A DNA stretch of 64,000 bases. Origin: Pseudomonas putida. GTDB lineage: Bacteria > Pseudomonadota > Gammaproteobacteria > Pseudomonadales > Pseudomonadaceae. The DNA lies in contig CP047152.1 of the NCBI GenBank assembly GCA_041879295.1, positions 2,857,501-2,921,500 on the forward strand, written 5' to 3'. The position numbers were made by a program, and so were the translations under genes. Below the pieces are notes generated by a model, which saw nothing but the letters and a program-made list of their open reading frames with translations, was not told where the DNA came from and did no database searches. Position 1 is the stretch's first letter. Each line of letters opens with the position of its first letter. Positions 8,896-38,117 of the stretch are shown piece after piece.

Positions 8896-9046
8896 CTTGT
8901 GCCGAGTCAATACTGCAAGGCAGAAACCCTCTGTAAATGCTCAAAAACGCCTAGATTAAACGATTCTTCTACAACTATTGCACTGGAGCCGTGATCACAG
9001 GAAAACGAAAAAGAGATACGTAAAATATCATTTAGGCTTGCATAGC

Positions 9047-9053: not shown

Positions 9054-9166
9054 CATGGGGCATATACTGACCTCACCTGGTCGTGATCCCGCATTACGCC
9101 CCTGCAAACAATTCCAAGAAATGCCGGCCCCGCGATGTGCCGTGCGTGCAGCCAGAGGAACCCGAG

Positions 9167-26647: not shown

Positions 26648-26906
26648 GCTTGCCTCCAGGGGTGGCAGGTCATTGCTTGTTCTTCTGCACATCGTCACCC
26701 TGCCCGGCCATTTGCCAGAAGGCGAAACGGTCGAACTTGGTCCTGGCACCCTGCCATGAAGCGGGTATGCGGTGGAGACGCCAGTTGCCGCAAAGTTCAA
26801 CTCGGCGTCAGCAGTTCCGTTGGTCAAGCGTTGTGAACCCTTGCCGGCCCTTGCCGGTCGCACTTTCAGAGCGACCGAACAAGGAACCGGCAGTGAGGAC
26901 GGCAGC

Positions 26907-27824
26907 GTGAGCGATATTCGCATCGGTATCTCCGGGTGGCGCTATGGCCCCTGGCGCAAGGATTTCTACCCCAAAGGCCTGAAGCAGGACGATGAACTGG
27001 CATTCGCTTCACGGGCGGTGAACAGCATCGAGATCAATGGCTCGTTCTACAGCCTGCAAACGCCCGAGCGTTATCTGGGCTGGCGTGAACAAACACCGGA
27101 CGGCTTCGTGTTCGCGGTCAAGGGGCCGCGCTATATCACCCATGTGCGGCGGCTGAAGGACATCGAAGAGCCAGTAGCCAACTTTTTTGCCTCCGGGCCG
27201 CTGCTGTTGGGCGAAAAGCTCGGGCCATTCCTGTGGCAGTTCCCTCCCAGCATGAAGTTCGATGAAGACCGTTTTGCCCGGTTTTTCGAGCTGCTGCCTC
27301 ACACCCGCAAAGCGGCCCGTGAACGCGCCCAAGGCTGCGCCGAACGCCTCAAGGGCAATGGCAGCCTTGCCATCAAGGGCAATGCACGCTTGCGTCACGC
27401 CGTGGAAATCCGCCACGAGAGTTTTCTCTGCGAAGCCTTTATCAAGCTGTTACGCAAGCATCGCGTGGCACTGGTAGTTGCCGACAGCGCCGGCAAGTGG
27501 CCCTGTGTCGAAGATGTGACCGCCGACTTCGTCTACATGCGCCTGCACGGGGATGTGGAGTTGTACAGCAGCGGATATACCGCACGCGCGCTGCGGCGCT
27601 GGAAGCAGCGTATCCAGCAATGGAGCGAAGGTACCCAGGCGGACGATGCCCACCTGGTCGTGCCGGGGCCGCCGCCTCGGCGTGCGGCACGGGATGTATA
27701 CTGCTACTTCGACAACGACCAGAAGGCTCACGCGCCATACGACGCCAGGCGCTTGCTGCAAAAGCTGTCGTTGGATCATGAGCTGATGACCGAGCCTGGC
27801 ATGGTGCCGGAGGTGGCCTTGTGA
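26907..27824 (+). CDS. DUF72 family protein (YecE-like)
   Basis: A 305-residue TIM-barrel-like protein starting at GTG 26907 with GAGGA upstream. DUF72 signatures include [42 protein letters not shown] and the late [15 protein letters not shown]. The molecular function of the family is not established. The GTG of the next gene overlaps its stop codon, so it heads the DUF72-ybhP-clsB-ybhN operon. Confidence 0.85.
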
Positions 27825-31667: not shown

Positions 31668-34169
31668 ATGGCCAAGCCCCTGCAGGAATACACGCGCAAG
31701 CGCAACTTCAACGCCACACCCGAGCCCAGCGGCAAACGCATCCGGGGCAAGCGGGCTCATGCGCTGCAGTTCTGCATCCAGAAACACGACGCCAGCCACT
31801 TGCACTACGACTTCCGCCTGGAACTCGATGGCACCTTGAAAAGCTGGGCGATCCCCAAAGGCCCATCGCTGGACCCCAAGGTGCGCCGCCTGGCAGTGCA
31901 TGTGGAGGACCACCCGTTGGACTACGCCGATTTCGAGGGGCATATCCCTGAAGGCAACTATGGTGCAGGCGATGTGATCGTCTGGGACCGTGGCATTTGG
32001 GAGCCTGAAGGCGATGCGCATGAAGCCTACGCCAAAGGCAAGCTGCGTTTCCGCCTGCAAGGTGAGAAGCTTGGCGGCGTGTGGAACCTATTCCGCACCC
32101 AGTTGGCCGGCAAGAAAGAGCAATGGATGCTGGTCAAGTCACACGATGCCCAGGCGCGCAGCGAAGCGGAGTACAGCATTGTCGAGGCCCTGCCCGACAG
32201 CGTGCTCAGCGAGCGCACGCTGGTGCCGCGCAAACCCGCTGCAAAAAAAGCCGCTACACCGCGCAGTAGTCGTAAACGCCCCGGCAAAGCTCAGACTGCA
32301 CCGTTGCCAGCGCAGTTGCAGCCGCAGCTGGCCACGCTAGTGGATTCTCCACCCAGCGGCGACTGGCGCTACGAAGTCAAGTTCGATGGCTACCGTATCC
32401 TGGCCCGCATCAAGGGCCAGGACATCCGCCTGTTCACCCGCAACGGCCATGACTGGAGCAGCAAGATGCCCCGGCAGGTTGCCGCCCTGCGCGCGCTCGG
32501 TATCGACTCGGCCTGGCTCGACGGTGAAATGGTGGTGGCTGATGAGAATGGCATGGCTGACTTCCAGGCGTTGCAGAACGCCTTCGATACCGAGCACGAC
32601 GAACACATCACCTATTACCTGTTCGACCTGCCATTTCTGGGCGGTCAAGACCTGCGGCAGCTAACGCTACAAAATCGCCGCGATACATTGCGCCAACTGC
32701 TTGAGCACAACCATTCCGACGTCATCAAGTACTCCGCCGACTTCGACGAACCTGTCGAGTCACTGCTCGAAAGTGCCTGCCGGCTGAAGCTGGAAGGCCT
32801 GATCGGCAAGCGTGCTGACAGTGTTTACAGCGGCCGCCGCAGCCCGGACTGGATCAAGCTCAAGTGCAAGCAACGCCAGGAATTCGTGATCGTCGGCTAC
32901 ACCGACCCCAAAGGCAGCCGGAGCGGCTTTGGGGCCCTGCTGCTGGCCCTGCACGACAATGACAGTGGCGAGCTGCGCTATGCCGGGAAGGTAGGCACCG
33001 GCTTCAATTCCACGACACTGGCCAGCATCCACGCGCGGCTCAAACCCCTGGAAATCGCCAAGCCAGCCCTGCCCTCGCCGCCCGCCGGTGCCCAGGCGCG
33101 TGGTGTGCACTGGCTGCGGCCGCAGCTGTTGGCCGAAGTTGCCTATGCCCAAATGACCCGTGACGGCATCGTGCGCCATTCGGTATTCCACGGCCTGCGC
33201 GATGACAAGGCAGCAACCGCCATTGACCTGGAGCGCGCCATGCCCGCCAAGACTGTATCCAACCGCAACAAGCAGGCCAAGGCGCCTGAAAACTTGGGTG
33301 AACTGCGGCTGACCCACCCCGACCGGGTCATCGATCCTTCAACTGGGGTGACCAAGCGCGAGGTTGCCGAGTATTACGCCGGCATCAGCCAGTGGATCCT
33401 GCCCCAGCTCAAGCACCGCCCGGTGGCATTGGTGCGCGCCCCGGACGGCTTGGGCGGAGAGCTGTTCTTCCAGAAAAACGCGGGCCAGCTGCATATACCC
33501 AACGTACTCAGCTACGAAAAGGACGAGGCAGGCCAGGCGGCGATGGTCATCAATCGCCCGGACACGCTGCTGGGCGCGGTGCAAATGAACATGCTGGAAC
33601 TGCACACCTGGAACGCCACGGACAAGAATTTCGACAAACCGGACCGTTTCGTGCTCGACCTGGACCCTGACCCCGCGCTGCCCTGGAAGGCGATGGTGGA
33701 GGCGACCCAACTGACCCTCACCCTGCTAGACGAACTGGGCCTGAAGGTGTTCCTGAAAACCAGTGGTGGCAAGGGTATTCACGTCGTTGTCCCCTTGACC
33801 CGGCGAGCCGGCTGGGACGAGGTCAAAGACTTCAGCCACGCCATCGTCGGTAACCTGGCCAAGCTGTTTCCGGAGCGCCTGAGCGCGGTGTCGGGGCCGA
33901 AAAATCGCGTGGGACGCATCTTCATCGACTACCTGCGCAACGGCAAGGGCGCCACCACGGCGTGCGCCTACTCACTGCGTGCCCGTGAGGGGCTGCCTGT
34001 ATCGGTGCCTATCTGGCGTGATGAGCTGGCGCACATCAAAGCCGCCAACCAATGGAACATCACCAACCTGCGCGAGCGCCTGGCGGAGGTCGACGACCCT
34101 TGGGCCGACATGGGCAAGGTACGCCAGTCGATCACCGCGCGCATGCGCAAGCAGCTAGGGCTCGAATGA
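31668..34169 (+). CDS. ligD: LigD, multifunctional NHEJ DNA ligase
   Basis: An 833-residue protein in PE-Lig-Pol order. The phosphoesterase domain (about 1-190) includes FCIQKHDASHLHYDFRLELD. The ATP-dependent ligase domain (about 215-520) has the nucleophile K238 in EVKFDGYR. The primase-polymerase domain (about 550-833) has the metal-binding D664-x-D666 (LDLDPDP) and SGGKGIHVVVPL. It repairs double-strand breaks with Ku. The ATG at 31668 gives the usual Pseudomonas length; the longer open frame from 31302 runs antisense to the acidic gene. Confidence 0.95.
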   Translation: MAKPLQEYTRKRNFNATPEPSGKRIRGKRAHALQFCIQKHDASHLHYDFRLELDGTLKSWAIPKGPSLDPKVRRLAVHVEDHPLDYADFEGHIPEGNYGAGDVIVWDRGIWEPEGDAHEAYAKGKLRFRLQGEKLGGVWNLFRTQLAGKKEQWMLVKSHDAQARSEAEYSIVEALPDSVLSERTLVPRKPAAKKAATPRSSRKRPGKAQTAPLPAQLQPQLATLVDSPPSGDWRYEVKFDGYRILARIKGQDIRLFTRNGHDWSSKMPRQVAALRALGIDSAWLDGEMVVADENGMADFQALQNAFDTEHDEHITYYLFDLPFLGGQDLRQLTLQNRRDTLRQLLEHNHSDVIKYSADFDEPVESLLESACRLKLEGLIGKRADSVYSGRRSPDWIKLKCKQRQEFVIVGYTDPKGSRSGFGALLLALHDNDSGELRYAGKVGTGFNSTTLASIHARLKPLEIAKPALPSPPAGAQARGVHWLRPQLLAEVAYAQMTRDGIVRHSVFHGLRDDKAATAIDLERAMPAKTVSNRNKQAKAPENLGELRLTHPDRVIDPSTGVTKREVAEYYAGISQWILPQLKHRPVALVRAPDGLGGELFFQKNAGQLHIPNVLSYEKDEAGQAAMVINRPDTLLGAVQMNMLELHTWNATDKNFDKPDRFVLDLDPDPALPWKAMVEATQLTLTLLDELGLKVFLKTSGGKGIHVVVPLTRRAGWDEVKDFSHAIVGNLAKLFPERLSAVSGPKNRVGRIFIDYLRNGKGATTACAYSLRAREGLPVSVPIWRDELAHIKAANQWNITNLRERLAEVDDPWADMGKVRQSITARMRKQLGLE

Positions 34170-34209: not shown

Positions 34210-35253
34210 ATGAGCATCGTTCAGGACTTCAATCTGACCACCCTTGACCGCCTTCTACGCACCTTTGGCGAACGCCAGTTACCGCTCAATCTGGATACCC
34301 AATTGCGGCAACTGATCCAGGCGCTGCAAGCTGATCACCTCGACCTGCTGCCGCTGCCGGGGCAAGGCAACACCTTGCGTCGCTGGCAGACCTTGGCACG
34401 GGTGGCCGGTTGCGACCTGGCGCTGGCCAAGCTCTATGAGGGCCATACCGATGCCCTGGCGATCCTGGCGGAATGTGGCGCAGCGCACCACGCCAACGAC
34501 GGCATTTGGGGCGTGTGGGCGGCAGAGCCGCCCGATGCACGTGTCCACATCACTGCGCGTGAAGGCGACCAGGTGCGCCTGAACGGCACCAAAGCCTGGT
34601 GTTCAGGTGCCTTGCAGATCGATCGCGCGCTGATTACCGCCTGGGATGAGGCCGAGCAGCCGCAATTGGTGGCAATCGAGCTGTCACAGCCAAGCCAGGG
34701 GCTGAACATCGAACACTGGCAGGCCGTTGGCATGGCCACCACCGCCAGTGTCGAGGTGGCTTTCAACGATACTCCAGGCACGCTCATTGGCACGCCAGGC
34801 CAATACCTCTCGCGTCCTGGTTTCTGGCAAGGCGGTGCGGGTATCGCCGCTTGCTGGTACGGCGCGGCCGAGGCGCTGGCGGATTACCTGCGTGAGCATT
34901 GCCGCAAACCCCGCCCAGACCCGCATGCCGATGCGCATCTGGGGGCTGTGGACGCTGCGTTGCATGGCGCCCGTGCATCACTGCGTGAATGCGCTGCCTG
35001 GATCGATCAACAGCCCGGCGTGGATGCCAGTTTCGAAGTTCGCCGCACCCGCGCCCAGGTAGAACAGGCCGTAGAGCAGGTTATCAGCCACGTCGGTCGT
35101 GCCTTGGGGGCCACGCCGTTCTGTCGCAGCAGTCATTTTGCCCGGCTGAGCGCCGACCTGCCGGTGTTCCTTCGCCAGAGCCATGCCGAGCGCGATCTGG
35201 CGATGCTGGGCCAGCAGTTGGTCCACTTGCCAGCGGGGGTATGGCAGCTATGA
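34210..35253 (+). CDS. Acyl-CoA dehydrogenase-like flavoprotein of an orphan operon
   Basis: A 347-residue protein, shorter than typical acyl-CoA dehydrogenases (about 380). It has the LNGTKAWCSGA block of the middle beta domain and a C-terminal FLRQSHAERDLAMLGQQL. A usual catalytic glutamate is not evident in the region around 215-260, so it may catalyse a different oxidation or bind a non-CoA substrate. It starts 40 nt after ligD and overlaps the PIG-L gene by 4 nt. Probable first gene of a four-gene unit. Confidence 0.8.
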   Translation: MSIVQDFNLTTLDRLLRTFGERQLPLNLDTQLRQLIQALQADHLDLLPLPGQGNTLRRWQTLARVAGCDLALAKLYEGHTDALAILAECGAAHHANDGIWGVWAAEPPDARVHITAREGDQVRLNGTKAWCSGALQIDRALITAWDEAEQPQLVAIELSQPSQGLNIEHWQAVGMATTASVEVAFNDTPGTLIGTPGQYLSRPGFWQGGAGIAACWYGAAEALADYLREHCRKPRPDPHADAHLGAVDAALHGARASLRECAAWIDQQPGVDASFEVRRTRAQVEQAVEQVISHVGRALGATPFCRSSHFARLSADLPVFLRQSHAERDLAMLGQQLVHLPAGVWQL

Positions 35254-36005
35254 ACCAGAACCTGATCCAGTCCGCCGGTGGCACGCCCTGGACAGCCTGG
35301 CAGCATAGCGCGCACCTGGCGCGTGCAACCTGGCTCGACGCACGCCAACTGTGCCCGCCGGGGCGCCGGCTGGTATTGATTGCGCCGCATCCGGATGACG
35401 AAATTCTCATGGCCGGCGGCCTGCTGGCAGGCTTCAAAGGGCGCGAGGATGAGCTGGTGCTGATCTCCGCCACCGACGGCGAAGGCAGCCACCCCGGCTC
35501 CAGCCATTGGACCGAGCATCGCTTGCGCCGCCAACGCCCTCAGGAAAGCCGACAGGCCCTGCAACAGCTCGACCTTGACCTTGAGCGCCTGGACTGGCGC
35601 AGGCTCCATCTGAAGGACGGCCAGTTGCCGCGCGAAGAAGCGTTTCTGGCCAGTCACCTCACGCAGTTACTTCGCCCCAATGATCTGCTGATGGCCACCT
35701 GGCGCAGTGACGGCCATTGCGATCACGAGGCCGTCGGCCGCGCTGCTGCGCAGGCGGCTGCAGCCCGTGGGGTGCAATTGGCTGAGGTACCGGTCTGGGC
35801 CTGGCACTGGGCTGAGCCTGACGACCCGCGCCTGCCATGGCCCCGTGCGCACCGTCTGCAGCTCGATGAAAGCCATTTGGCACGCAAGCGCAAAGCCTTG
35901 GCCGCTCACGTCAGCCAGCTGCAGCCGGACGGCGAGCAGCCGCCGGTGCTACCGCCGCACCTGTTGGATTGCCTTCTGCAACCTTTCGAACTGGTGTTCC
36001 TTTGA
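35250..36005 (+). CDS. PIG-L family N-acetylglucosamine-type deacetylase
   Basis: A 251-residue LmbE/PIG-L protein. The zinc motif PHPDDE (H47, D49, D50, E51) and the later DGHCDHEAVG (with H159) give the His-Asp-His metal site. Relatives remove acetyl from GlcNAc linked to lipids, inositol (mycothiol) or malate (bacillithiol). The ATGA overlap with the upstream dehydrogenase and the short gap to the methyltransferase place it in one operon. Substrate unknown. Confidence 0.88.
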   Translation: MNQNLIQSAGGTPWTAWQHSAHLARATWLDARQLCPPGRRLVLIAPHPDDEILMAGGLLAGFKGREDELVLISATDGEGSHPGSSHWTEHRLRRQRPQESRQALQQLDLDLERLDWRRLHLKDGQLPREEAFLASHLTQLLRPNDLLMATWRSDGHCDHEAVGRAAAQAAAARGVQLAEVPVWAWHWAEPDDPRLPWPRAHRLQLDESHLARKRKALAAHVSQLQPDGEQPPVLPPHLLDCLLQPFELVFL

Positions 36006-36016
36006 ATGGAGCTGTC

Positions 36017-36616
36017 ATGAGCCTCGATCCTCAGTATTTTGCCGAGCTATACGCCACCAATGAAGATCCTTGGGCCTTTCGCACCCGCTGGTATGAGAAG
36101 CGCAAACGCGAGCTGGTGATGGCCAGCTTGCCACGGCAGTGCTATCAGCGTGTGTTCGAGCCAGCCTGCGCGAATGGCGAGCTCAGTGCGCTGCTGGCCG
36201 AGCGCTGCGCTGACCTGCTATGCCAGGACCTGGACCCGACGGCCGTAGGCCTGGCCCGGGAACGCCTGGCGCACCTGCACAATGCTACGGTCGAGCGGGC
36301 CCGGCTACCAGGGGACTGGCCGGGCGGCCGCTTTGACCTGATCGTGCTCAGCGAGGTCGGCTATTACCTTGATCCCACCGACTGGCTGCAGGTGATCGAA
36401 CAGTCGGTGGCCAGCCTTGGCTACGACGGCACGCTACTGGCCTGCCACTGGAAGCACCCTATCGCGGGTTGCCCGCAGGATGGTCGCGAGGTGCACCGTA
36501 TGTTGACCCGGCATTTGCCGTTGCATCAGCAGTTCCGGCATGAGGAGGCGGACTTTTTGCTGGAGTGCTGGTCATGCCAGCCAAGCGTTGTCGATCTCGA
36601 TGAGACGTGCCCATGA
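36017..36616 (+). CDS. Class I SAM-dependent methyltransferase (NodS-like)
   Basis: A 199-residue protein starting MSLDPQYFAELYATNEDPWAFRTRWYE, the opening typical of NodS-type methyltransferases. The SAM loop is VFEPACANGELSALLAERC and the post-loop acidic residue lies in LCQDLDPTAV. NodS methylates a deacetylated glucosamine nitrogen, so following a PIG-L deacetylase is suggestive. It overlaps the glycosyltransferase ATG by 4 nt. Confidence 0.85.
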   Translation: MSLDPQYFAELYATNEDPWAFRTRWYEKRKRELVMASLPRQCYQRVFEPACANGELSALLAERCADLLCQDLDPTAVGLARERLAHLHNATVERARLPGDWPGGRFDLIVLSEVGYYLDPTDWLQVIEQSVASLGYDGTLLACHWKHPIAGCPQDGREVHRMLTRHLPLHQQFRHEEADFLLECWSCQPSVVDLDETCP

Positions 36617-37272
36617 TCGCCGTTGTCATCCCTGCGCATAACGAAGCCCGCCGCCTTGGGCGATGCCTGCGGGCGGTGCTGGTGGCTGCCCGGCAGATGC
36701 AGCAAGCGGGACTGCGCGTGGAAGTGCTGGTAGTGCTGGACCGCTGCAGCGACGGCAGCGCCGCCGTGGCGCGGCGTTTCGGCGTACACACGCTGGAGGT
36801 GGATGCCGGTAATGTCGGCATGGCACGTCGTGTTGGGGCGGCGCACATGGTCGAGCGTGGCGCCACGTGGCTGGCGTGCACCGATGCGGACAGCCAAGTC
36901 CCTGCGCACTGGCTGCTGTCGCAGCTGGCCTGTAGCGCCGAGGTGGTTTGCGGCACCGTGCATGTCGATTACTGGCAACCCTGGCAGACCGCCGCGCTGC
37001 GCAAGCTGTACCAGAGCCGCTACCAGGCGTGTGAAGGGCATCGGCATGTGCACGGCGCGAATCTGGGGGTATGTACCGATGCTTATGAGCGTGTAGGTGG
37101 CTTCCAGCCCCTGGCGGCGCATGAAGATGTGCAACTGGTCAGCGACCTGCAGGCCAGCGGTGCCCAGATCGTCTGGACCGCCAGGCATAGTGTGGCCACC
37201 AGCAGCCGGCGCGATAGCCGCGCCCGCGAGGGGTTTGGGGATTATTTAGCCGGGTTACAGGCGCAGTCCTGA
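36613..37272 (+). CDS. Family 2 glycosyltransferase
   Basis: A 219-residue GT-A protein. It starts MIAVVIPAHNEARRLGRCL and has LVVLDRCSDGS and the metal motif CTDADSQVP, followed by AHEDVQLVSDL as acceptor region. The ATG at 36613 overlaps the methyltransferase TGA; the GTG at 36607 is an alternative. No membrane helices, so the acceptor is probably cytoplasmic or membrane-peripheral. Last gene of the orphan operon, convergent with ku. Confidence 0.85.
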   Translation: MIAVVIPAHNEARRLGRCLRAVLVAARQMQQAGLRVEVLVVLDRCSDGSAAVARRFGVHTLEVDAGNVGMARRVGAAHMVERGATWLACTDADSQVPAHWLLSQLACSAEVVCGTVHVDYWQPWQTAALRKLYQSRYQACEGHRHVHGANLGVCTDAYERVGGFQPLAAHEDVQLVSDLQASGAQIVWTARHSVATSSRRDSRAREGFGDYLAGLQAQS

Positions 37273-37295: not shown

Positions 37296-38117
37296 TCATG
37301 AAGCTTTGCGCGCTTTTTTCACCGGTTTCTTGCCACCCAGGCTGCGCTTGAGCAGTTCGGTAAGGTCGAGGATGTCCGCACCTTTCTCGGCCCCACCTGC
37401 GTCGCCCTTCTCCACCGCCTCGATCTTGCCCTTGCTGGCTTTCTCTTCCACCAGGTCCATGATCGTCTGGCGGAAGGCGTCATGATAATCCTCAGGCTTC
37501 CAGGGCCCGCTCATGTCCTCTACCAGGCGCTTGGCCATCTCCAGCTCGCGCTTCTCCACCTTACTGTCGGTGACGCTGGAGTCCAGCTCCAGCGTTTCCA
37601 GCCCTCGCACCTCCTCAGGCCAGCGCAAGGTGATCATCACCAGCGCATCGTCCAGGGGCCGCAGCAGCGCCAGGTGCTGCCGGGTATGCAATACCACGGT
37701 GGCCAGGGCCACCTTGCCGGTCTTTTCCAGCGTCTCGCGCAGCAAGGCATACACCTTGCCGCCACGGCGGTCCGGTGTCAGGTAGTACGGCGTATCGAAA
37801 TGCTGCAGCGGAATGTCGCCCGCTTCTACAAAGGAAAAGATATCGATGGTCTGGGTCGCTTCGGGCCGGGCCTTACGGATCTCCTCCTCACTGATCACCA
37901 CGTAGCGGCCCTTCTCGAACTCTACGCCCTTGACGATATTGTCCTTGTCGATTTCCTTGCCGGTCACCTTGTTCACCCGCTTGTAGCCGACCGGCTCCAT
38001 GCTGCGCTTGTCCAGCCAGTCGAAATCCACACGCTCGGTGCGCACGGCGGTATTGAGTGCCACGGGGATGTGCACAAGGCCAAAACTGATGGCGCCTTTC
38101 CAGATTGCCCGAGCCAT
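37296..38117 (-). CDS. ku: Ku, NHEJ DNA end-binding protein
   Basis: A 273-residue protein starting MARAIWKGAISFGLVHIPVAL, the signature of bacterial Ku. The core contains YLTPDRRGGKVYALLRETL and the lysine-rich C-terminus (LGGKKPVKKARKAS) contacts DNA and LigD. It forms a ring-shaped homodimer on DNA ends and recruits LigD. It is separated from ligD by the four-gene glyco-operon rather than being adjacent. Confidence 0.94.
   Translation of the reverse strand: MARAIWKGAISFGLVHIPVALNTAVRTERVDFDWLDKRSMEPVGYKRVNKVTGKEIDKDNIVKGVEFEKGRYVVISEEEIRKARPEATQTIDIFSFVEAGDIPLQHFDTPYYLTPDRRGGKVYALLRETLEKTGKVALATVVLHTRQHLALLRPLDDALVMITLRWPEEVRGLETLELDSSVTDSKVEKRELEMAKRLVEDMSGPWKPEDYHDAFRQTIMDLVEEKASKGKIEAVEKGDAGGAEKGADILDLTELLKRSLGGKKPVKKARKAS

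Follow-up and report, generated by a model that had tools for sequence, protein, structure and literature searches.

A conserved four-gene cassette between ligD and ku in Pseudomonas putida, with a predicted role in amino-sugar modification

In rhizobia, the Nod-factor steps of NodC, NodB and NodS form N-methyl-glucosamine, while the biosynthesis of mycothiol and bacillithiol uses the enzyme pairs MshA/MshB and BshA/BshB. We analysed a stretch of 64,000 nucleotides (nt) from Pseudomonas putida (contig CP047152.1, positions 2,857,501 to 2,921,500; hereafter the window), in which a four-gene cassette spans positions 34210-37272 of the plus strand, between ligD and a convergent ku. It encodes a flavoprotein with an acyl-CoA dehydrogenase (ACAD) fold, a PIG-L-type de-N-acetylase, a NodS-family methyltransferase (MT) and a glycosyltransferase (GT) of family 2 (GT2). 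We favour, with moderate confidence, the reading that this is a stress-response cassette, partly plasmid-borne, that makes a small, soluble, N-methylated amino-sugar glycoside kept inside the cell. Its gene content, joint inheritance, fusions, deacetylase metal motif and stress-gene neighbourhoods are directly established.

Layout and conservation of the cassette

The genes of the locus are as follows, in window coordinates.

31669..34169, plus strand: ligD (DNA ligase D), an open reading frame (ORF) with an ATG start, ending 40 nt upstream of the cassette
34210..35253, plus strand: ACAD-fold flavoprotein of 347 amino acids (ORF, profile and structure comparison)
35241 or 35250..36005, plus strand: PIG-L/LmbE-type de-N-acetylase (ORF, Pfam, motifs)
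36017..36616, plus strand: NodS-family MT, dependent on S-adenosylmethionine (SAM) (ORF, Pfam; relative 4ISC)
36613..37272, plus strand: small family-2 glycosyltransferase, GT2 (ORF, Pfam, motifs)
37296..38117, minus strand: ku, convergent, its stop 23 nt past the cassette end

The cassette recurs as a unit. Presence was counted by tblastn, and called ORFs (GC3-based) were used only for the layouts of four loci (L089, L138, L145 and L148). Across 149 Pseudomonas genomes, searched for the flavoprotein and MT with PIG-L and GT left out, the flavoprotein occurs in 92 and the MT in 91, never without the flavoprotein; the sole carrier without an MT match is a 650-contig assembly. Of 398 genomes from across the phylum, 33 have the flavoprotein, and 28 of these lie outside Pseudomonas; for the order the count is 8 of 194. 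In all 28 the MT is no more than 5 kb away from the flavoprotein, and 22 have all four genes, ordered ACAD-PIGL-MT-GT (15), GT-ACAD-PIGL-MT (5) or with the GT reversed (2). PIG-L was undetected in five of these 28 genomes and GT in three, and at such distances a GT match could be to one of several GT2s. All four genes are also present in 68 of 80 named loci, these being the best 80 of at least 552 confirmed; 78 are titled Pseudomonas, so this sample is biased to near relatives. The flavoprotein has matches in 75 PLSDB plasmid records and the MT in 84, with carriers including Acinetobacter, Sulfitobacter, Cupriavidus, Comamonas, Deinococcus, Streptomyces, Kitasatospora, Rubrobacter and Nostoc, and relatives are thus present on plasmids of Actinomycetota, Deinococcota and Cyanobacteriota.

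Conservation of order, strand and membership across genera places the arrangement beyond chance. Distance matrices of the four proteins correlate over 36 loci (r 0.47-0.81, values that 0 of 2000 permutations reached), a test made without species-tree control that shows no more than common descent. A first-pass annotation, made from the sequence of the window alone, had called the operon an orphan, a description refuted by its recurrence in Pseudomonas, in 28 other genomes and on plasmids of several phyla; nor are the genes scattered without co-occurrence, the pattern that it had named as speaking against a shared role. The same annotation had placed four ORFs at this position and strand, and all are present. 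Of the three 4-nt overlaps that it described, two stand as ATGA overlaps, at the ACAD/PIG-L join (4 nt if the second ATG is the PIG-L start, otherwise 13 nt) and the MT/GT join, whereas PIG-L and MT are separated by an 11-nt gap. With the same strand and a 40-nt spacing, ligD and the cassette are probably co-transcribed. A sigma-70 promoter scan returned 0 sites against 1.2 in shuffles, and a terminator scan 3 against 4.7.

Some loci depart from the full run. In Pseudomonas wayambapalatensis (L055) PIG-L alone is absent, the flavoprotein match ending at 9038 and the MT starting at 9111, while GT, LigD and Ku are all matched. At two Deinococcus loci the run is split by another gene, and no GT match was found there. 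On plasmids of the actinobacteria Streptomyces (L210) and Kitasatospora (L152), flavoproteins 46-49% and MTs 43-46% identical to those of the window are closer to it than the Sulfitobacter or Novosphingobium proteins, and the ferritin-like gene after both cassettes is 49% identical to that of Comamonas L151; from these identities, the pattern looks like transfer between phyla.

Gene fusions, together with this joint occurrence, argue for one pathway, as first proposed. The L148 cassette carries a PIG-L+MT fusion, and a search with it (7999 candidates scored) returned both domains in 88 of 93 among the matches listed. Fused proteins are named from Jiella, Aureimonas, Fulvimarina, Intrasporangium, Herbiconiux and Arthrobacter, some of which are actinobacteria. 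One of the proteins listed (P0207) is a single 702-amino-acid chain of PIG-L, MT and GT2, in the same order as the cassette. The first-pass annotation had placed fused PIG-L/MT proteins in actinobacteria and cyanobacteria; the actinobacterial part is borne out, whereas in Nostoc, the one cyanobacterial case, PIG-L and MT lie in different reading frames.

A Rubrobacter plasmid bears on the substrate. Here, the gene immediately upstream of the flavoprotein encodes a polysaccharide deacetylase of the NodB type (PF01522, 92 bits), and past the flavoprotein are a NodS-like MT, a pyridine-nucleotide-type oxidoreductase of the flavin adenine dinucleotide class and a GT; PIG-L was neither annotated nor detected in the stretch opened. 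Since two unrelated families of sugar de-N-acetylase occupy the same setting, the second of them in one genome, the cassette substrate is likely an N-acetylamino-sugar.

Families and motifs of the four enzymes

The three sugar-type enzymes all exceed their Pfam cut-offs. PIG-L matches PF02585 with 92 bits (cut-off 28.2) and retains intact HPDDE and HxDH metal motifs; across the window protein and those of 38 of 44 chosen loci, HxDD is present in 39 of 39 and an HxDH-type motif in 37 of 39. The MT matches the NodS family PF05401 (38.3 bits, cut-off 24) and the NodS structure 3ofj (E 4e-9), and has a close relative of solved structure (4ISC). This match, with the NodB-type deacetylase standing in for PIG-L in Rubrobacter, upholds the Nod-like amino-sugar logic of the first-pass annotation. 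GT2 scores 47.5 bits against Glycos_transf_2 (cut-off 23.3), with conserved DxD and H-x-H-G-A-N-L motifs. The NCBIfam equivalog models set a different standard: the MT reaches 50.9 of 300 bits for NodS, and PIG-L reaches 18.2 of 224 for MshB, 35.7 of 182.5 for BshB1 and 35.1 of 195 for BshB2.

Structural comparison gives the flavoprotein the three-domain acyl-CoA dehydrogenase fold. Its match to PF02770 (26.3 bits) falls under the cut-off of 33.3, with no other ACAD domain at E ≤ 0.01, and two Deinococcus relatives pass the N- and C-domain ACAD cut-offs. ACADs usually carry a catalytic Glu eight residues after a conserved Asp. In the flavoprotein this Asp is D316, by alignment with ColB1 and TdsC, and the position eight residues on is S324, invariant in 45 of 45 aligned proteins of alignment A2; in alignment A1, four of the five most distant rows have Pro there (L034, L036, L040 and L041). 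The catalytic Glu is therefore absent at the usual ACAD position, the alternative Glu position of isovaleryl-CoA dehydrogenase lying outside this comparison.

In a profile search, DszC and TdsC (E ~3e-16) were the best of 56 PDB sequences, and the profile also matches DnmZ and the nitrososynthase structures 3mxl and 3m9v, the latter of which we take to be KijD3. Foldseek ranks 1-10 are DszC, TdsC and MsuC; with VIA-align, DszC-types and ACADs tie as nearest. A GTK-x-x-CSG motif is common to the flavoprotein and DszC. On these comparisons the flavoprotein appears nearest to the DszC/TdsC/MsuC-type (group D) flavin monooxygenases, and its 23.5 bits against the NCBIfam DszC equivalog (cut-off 850) mark it as a distant relative of DszC rather than DszC itself.

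These features bear on the reaction. The flavoprotein could be a true dehydrogenase, with PIG-L and MT acting on a non-sugar amide or acyl intermediate, and the full acyl-CoA dehydrogenase fold and partial PF02770 match would fit; we nevertheless consider this improbable, given the Ser or Pro eight residues after D316 and the nearness to DszC and TdsC. A plain fatty-acyl dehydrogenase role was rejected on the missing usual Glu and the same sequence affinity, and the acyl-chain oxidation suggested by the first-pass annotation is accordingly unlikely. A more specific proposal is that a DszC- or nitrososynthase-like flavoprotein N-oxygenates the glycoside to an N-methyl-N-oxygenated product (a hydroxylamine or nitrone) that serves as a radical-trapping xeroprotectant. 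We regard this as a long shot; if true, carriers would have, next to trehalose or sucrose, catalase and end-joining repair, a low-molecular-weight compound dedicated to xeroprotection, with its route carried on plasmids in several phyla.

Variants of the flavoprotein were also seen. Its match is in two pieces in two Pseudomonas genomes (G052 and G080), which suggests decaying copies or sequencing errors. Three Deinococcus flavoproteins (L160, L161 and L212) have an extra N-terminal domain of ~400 amino acids, with sub-threshold GH53 matches (E 0.01-0.02) in two of the three and no PDB sequence match in the one tried.

Genomic settings

The place beside ku and ligD is one of several settings. 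Among the 80 named loci, a ligD homologue lies directly upstream in 34 (28 of them also with ku), glgX in 32 and neither in 14. By coordinates, no more than 17 of the 92 Pseudomonas carriers have Ku and the cassette within 10 kb of each other, so the end-joining setting suggested by the window does not generalise. A Ku match somewhere in the genome is seen in 85 of 92 carriers and in 25 of the 57 genomes that lack the cassette (Fisher p = 8e-11, without phylogenetic correction), leaving seven carriers without a Ku match. One locus from the same family as Pseudomonas (L123) combines both Pseudomonas settings, a single stretch carrying Ku, LigD, the cassette, glgX, DUF2934 and treY. Further afield, in L145, from another class of the phylum, no more than 7 kb separates the cassette from Ku, LigD and a divergent KatE-type catalase, and on a Bradyrhizobium plasmid ACAD-PIGL-MT lies near a ligase, Ku and LigD.

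The co-occurrence with Ku, the neighbourhoods in L123, L145 and Bradyrhizobium, and ligD lying 40 nt upstream in the window could together mean a direct part for the cassette in DNA end joining, such as that of an accessory to the ligD operon. We consider this very unlikely, as most carriers keep Ku elsewhere or have no match to it, the enzymes are of carbohydrate type, and at other loci the neighbours are trehalose or catalase genes. A function specific to ku/ligD was rejected on the differing gene contexts across loci. Upstream of ligD, an ORF at 26772-27824 of the window looks DUF72-like by eye, and an annotated DUF72 gene adjoins the ligase and Ku genes on the Bradyrhizobium plasmid L163.

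Trehalose, glycogen and catalase genes form the other recurrent setting. In L089, the upstream run comprises by Pfam a GH77 protein, an alpha-amylase-family protein, DUF2934 and a CBM48/alpha-amylase protein, which, from family, length and order, we read as probable malQ, treY, DUF2934 and glgX. A second PIG-L gene (PF02585; L089:10982-11902) follows the GT there, and then an autotransporter; a second PIG-L is tagged in many loci with glgX upstream. In the window's own genome, assembled in three contigs, the cassette lies 2.75 Mb from katE and 0.87 Mb from the DUF2934 that marks the tre/glg locus.

We scored the 28 non-Pseudomonas neighbourhoods, mostly of 16 kb, for stress markers (catalase KatE, OtsA, OtsB, GlgE, GlgX, TreY, MalQ, GH65, Ku, LigD and DUF2934). 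At least one occurs in 9 of 28, against 0 of 40 control stretches of 16 kb from 20 of the 28 genomes, two of the stretches overlapping each other (Fisher p = 1.4e-4); the marker list was drawn from plasmid and Pseudomonas loci viewed earlier and was not chosen blind. Counting a sucrose-phosphate-synthase-like gene as well, first met in one of the 28, gives 11 of 28 against 0 of 40. When the same 28 genomes were searched whole by family, seven had OtsA or a KatE-type C-terminal domain no further than 10 kb from the cassette. The stress or desiccation role hinted at by the first-pass annotation thus draws better support from the trehalose and catalase contexts than from ku/ligD.

Plasmids extend this pattern. 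We opened 23 hand-picked plasmid regions, two of them unannotated and three with a partial cassette or another protein, and trehalose genes, GH65, catalase or Ku/LigD are annotated in 10 (including a partial-type Paraburkholderia). Two Comamonas plasmids have otsA-ACAD-PIGL-MT-GT-otsB in one gene run; an Acinetobacter johnsonii plasmid has the cassette near otsBA, catalase and DUF421; Novosphingobium and Sphingobium plasmids have catalase-GT-GT-GT-ACAD-PIGL-MT-GT; and in Legionella lytica the cassette follows otsB-GH65. No such stress genes were seen in the annotated plasmid regions of three Deinococcus, Roseomonas, Paracoccus, Pandoraea, Kitasatospora and Jiella.

The cassette might instead act on the disaccharide, with trehalose, sucrose or a precursor as its starting compound and an amino, N-methyl derivative as its product. 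Its position between otsA and otsB in Comamonas and after otsB-GH65 in Legionella lytica would fit, as would L138, where a sucrose-phosphate-synthase-like gene (under curated cut-offs, 446.6 versus 576 and 164.5 versus 209.8 bits) and two GTs precede it. Most of the 28 neighbourhoods, however, lack a disaccharide gene, and a shared regulon accounts for the linkage equally well. Trehalose-type and sucrose-type loci both carry the cassette, which makes a single fixed disaccharide acceptor unlikely, and we hold this alternative to be unlikely overall.

Proposed role and relation to known pathways

In the scheme that we favour, GT2 would transfer an N-acetylhexosamine to an acceptor, PIG-L would then strip the acetyl group and the NodS-like enzyme would N-methylate the freed amine. 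The ACAD-fold protein may oxygenate the product with reduced flavin and O2, perhaps at nitrogen. The glycoside would be held in the cell beside non-reducing disaccharides and catalase, and so aid survival of drying or oxidation. We infer the substrates, step order, N- over O-methylation, oxygenation, product, acceptor and regulation. The recurrence of trehalose, catalase and end-joining genes around the cassette points to a role in protection during drying or stationary phase, and the gene neighbourhood would be consistent with control by RpoS or analogues. In a dksA mutant of Acinetobacter baumannii, otsA, otsB and katE fall (PMC10325922); the terms 'deacetylase' and 'acyl-CoA dehydrogenase' are absent from the main text of that paper.

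The window's four-gene run contains no transporter or lipid gene, which favours a soluble, cytosolic product. Several loci nevertheless weigh against this and would suit a cassette that decorates a surface or lipid-linked glycan (lipopolysaccharide, exopolysaccharide or glycolipid) or makes an exported product: extra glycosyltransferases join it in Novosphingobium, Sphingobium and L145; a UDP-galactopyranose mutase gene follows it in Deinococcus gobiensis; and transporter genes of the major facilitator superfamily lie near it in Acinetobacter, Sulfitobacter and Bradyrhizobium. In addition, a GT/MT/polysaccharide-deacetylase protein of Sulfitobacter indolifex, with a related MT, is encoded beside an ATP-binding cassette transporter and a sulfotransferase. 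The window's run has no polymerase, flippase or lipid gene, however, and none is annotated in the Acinetobacter johnsonii or the two Comamonas runs, whose neighbours make trehalose. We therefore judge a surface or export role possible, though not probable.

If the intracellular glycoside is right, many environmental bacteria carry a route to a protective amino-sugar, sometimes on plasmids, in loci that also serve catalase, end joining and the synthesis of trehalose or sucrose. Four conserved genes annotated by family alone would be explained, and drying survival would gain a short gene list for one of its causes. Searches of the open-access literature (PMC, outside which most subscription papers lie) brought up no title or abstract opening that describes the cassette or places it among stress genes.

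Each part of the cassette has described counterparts. The NCBI name 'bifunctional PIG-L family deacetylase/class I SAM-dependent methyltransferase' already covers the fused form of two cassette proteins; it gives no pathway or function, and the window keeps the two as separate genes. The flavoprotein shares the ACAD fold with DszC, TdsC and MsuC, its top profile and Foldseek matches, and with amino-sugar nitrososynthases, but is only 19-22% identical to DszC-types over the model, has a shortened N-terminal domain and is accompanied by no flavin reductase among the window's four genes.

With the mycothiol and bacillithiol pathways the cassette shares the pairing of a GT with a PIG-L/LmbE deacetylase, in its case predicted to make a glucosamine glycoside, and the L145 cassette has a family-4 (GT4) neighbour with weak similarity to MshA/BshA. 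The window GT belongs to GT2 rather than GT4, its PIG-L falls far under the MshB and BshB cut-offs, and no cysteine-adding enzyme is present among the four cassette genes, to which that search was limited. With NodC, NodB and NodS it shares a GT2-family enzyme, a de-N-acetylase and a NodS-family MT in the same predicted order of chemistry, whereas it has PIG-L instead of NodB, an extra flavoprotein and no acyltransferase among its four genes, and its MT is far under the NodS equivalog cut-off. By the tests made, the cassette is a member of neither pathway. It is best described, from its gene families, as a putative amino-sugar pathway that resembles those of Nod factor or mycothiol and has gained a flavin enzyme, each family of which is known already.

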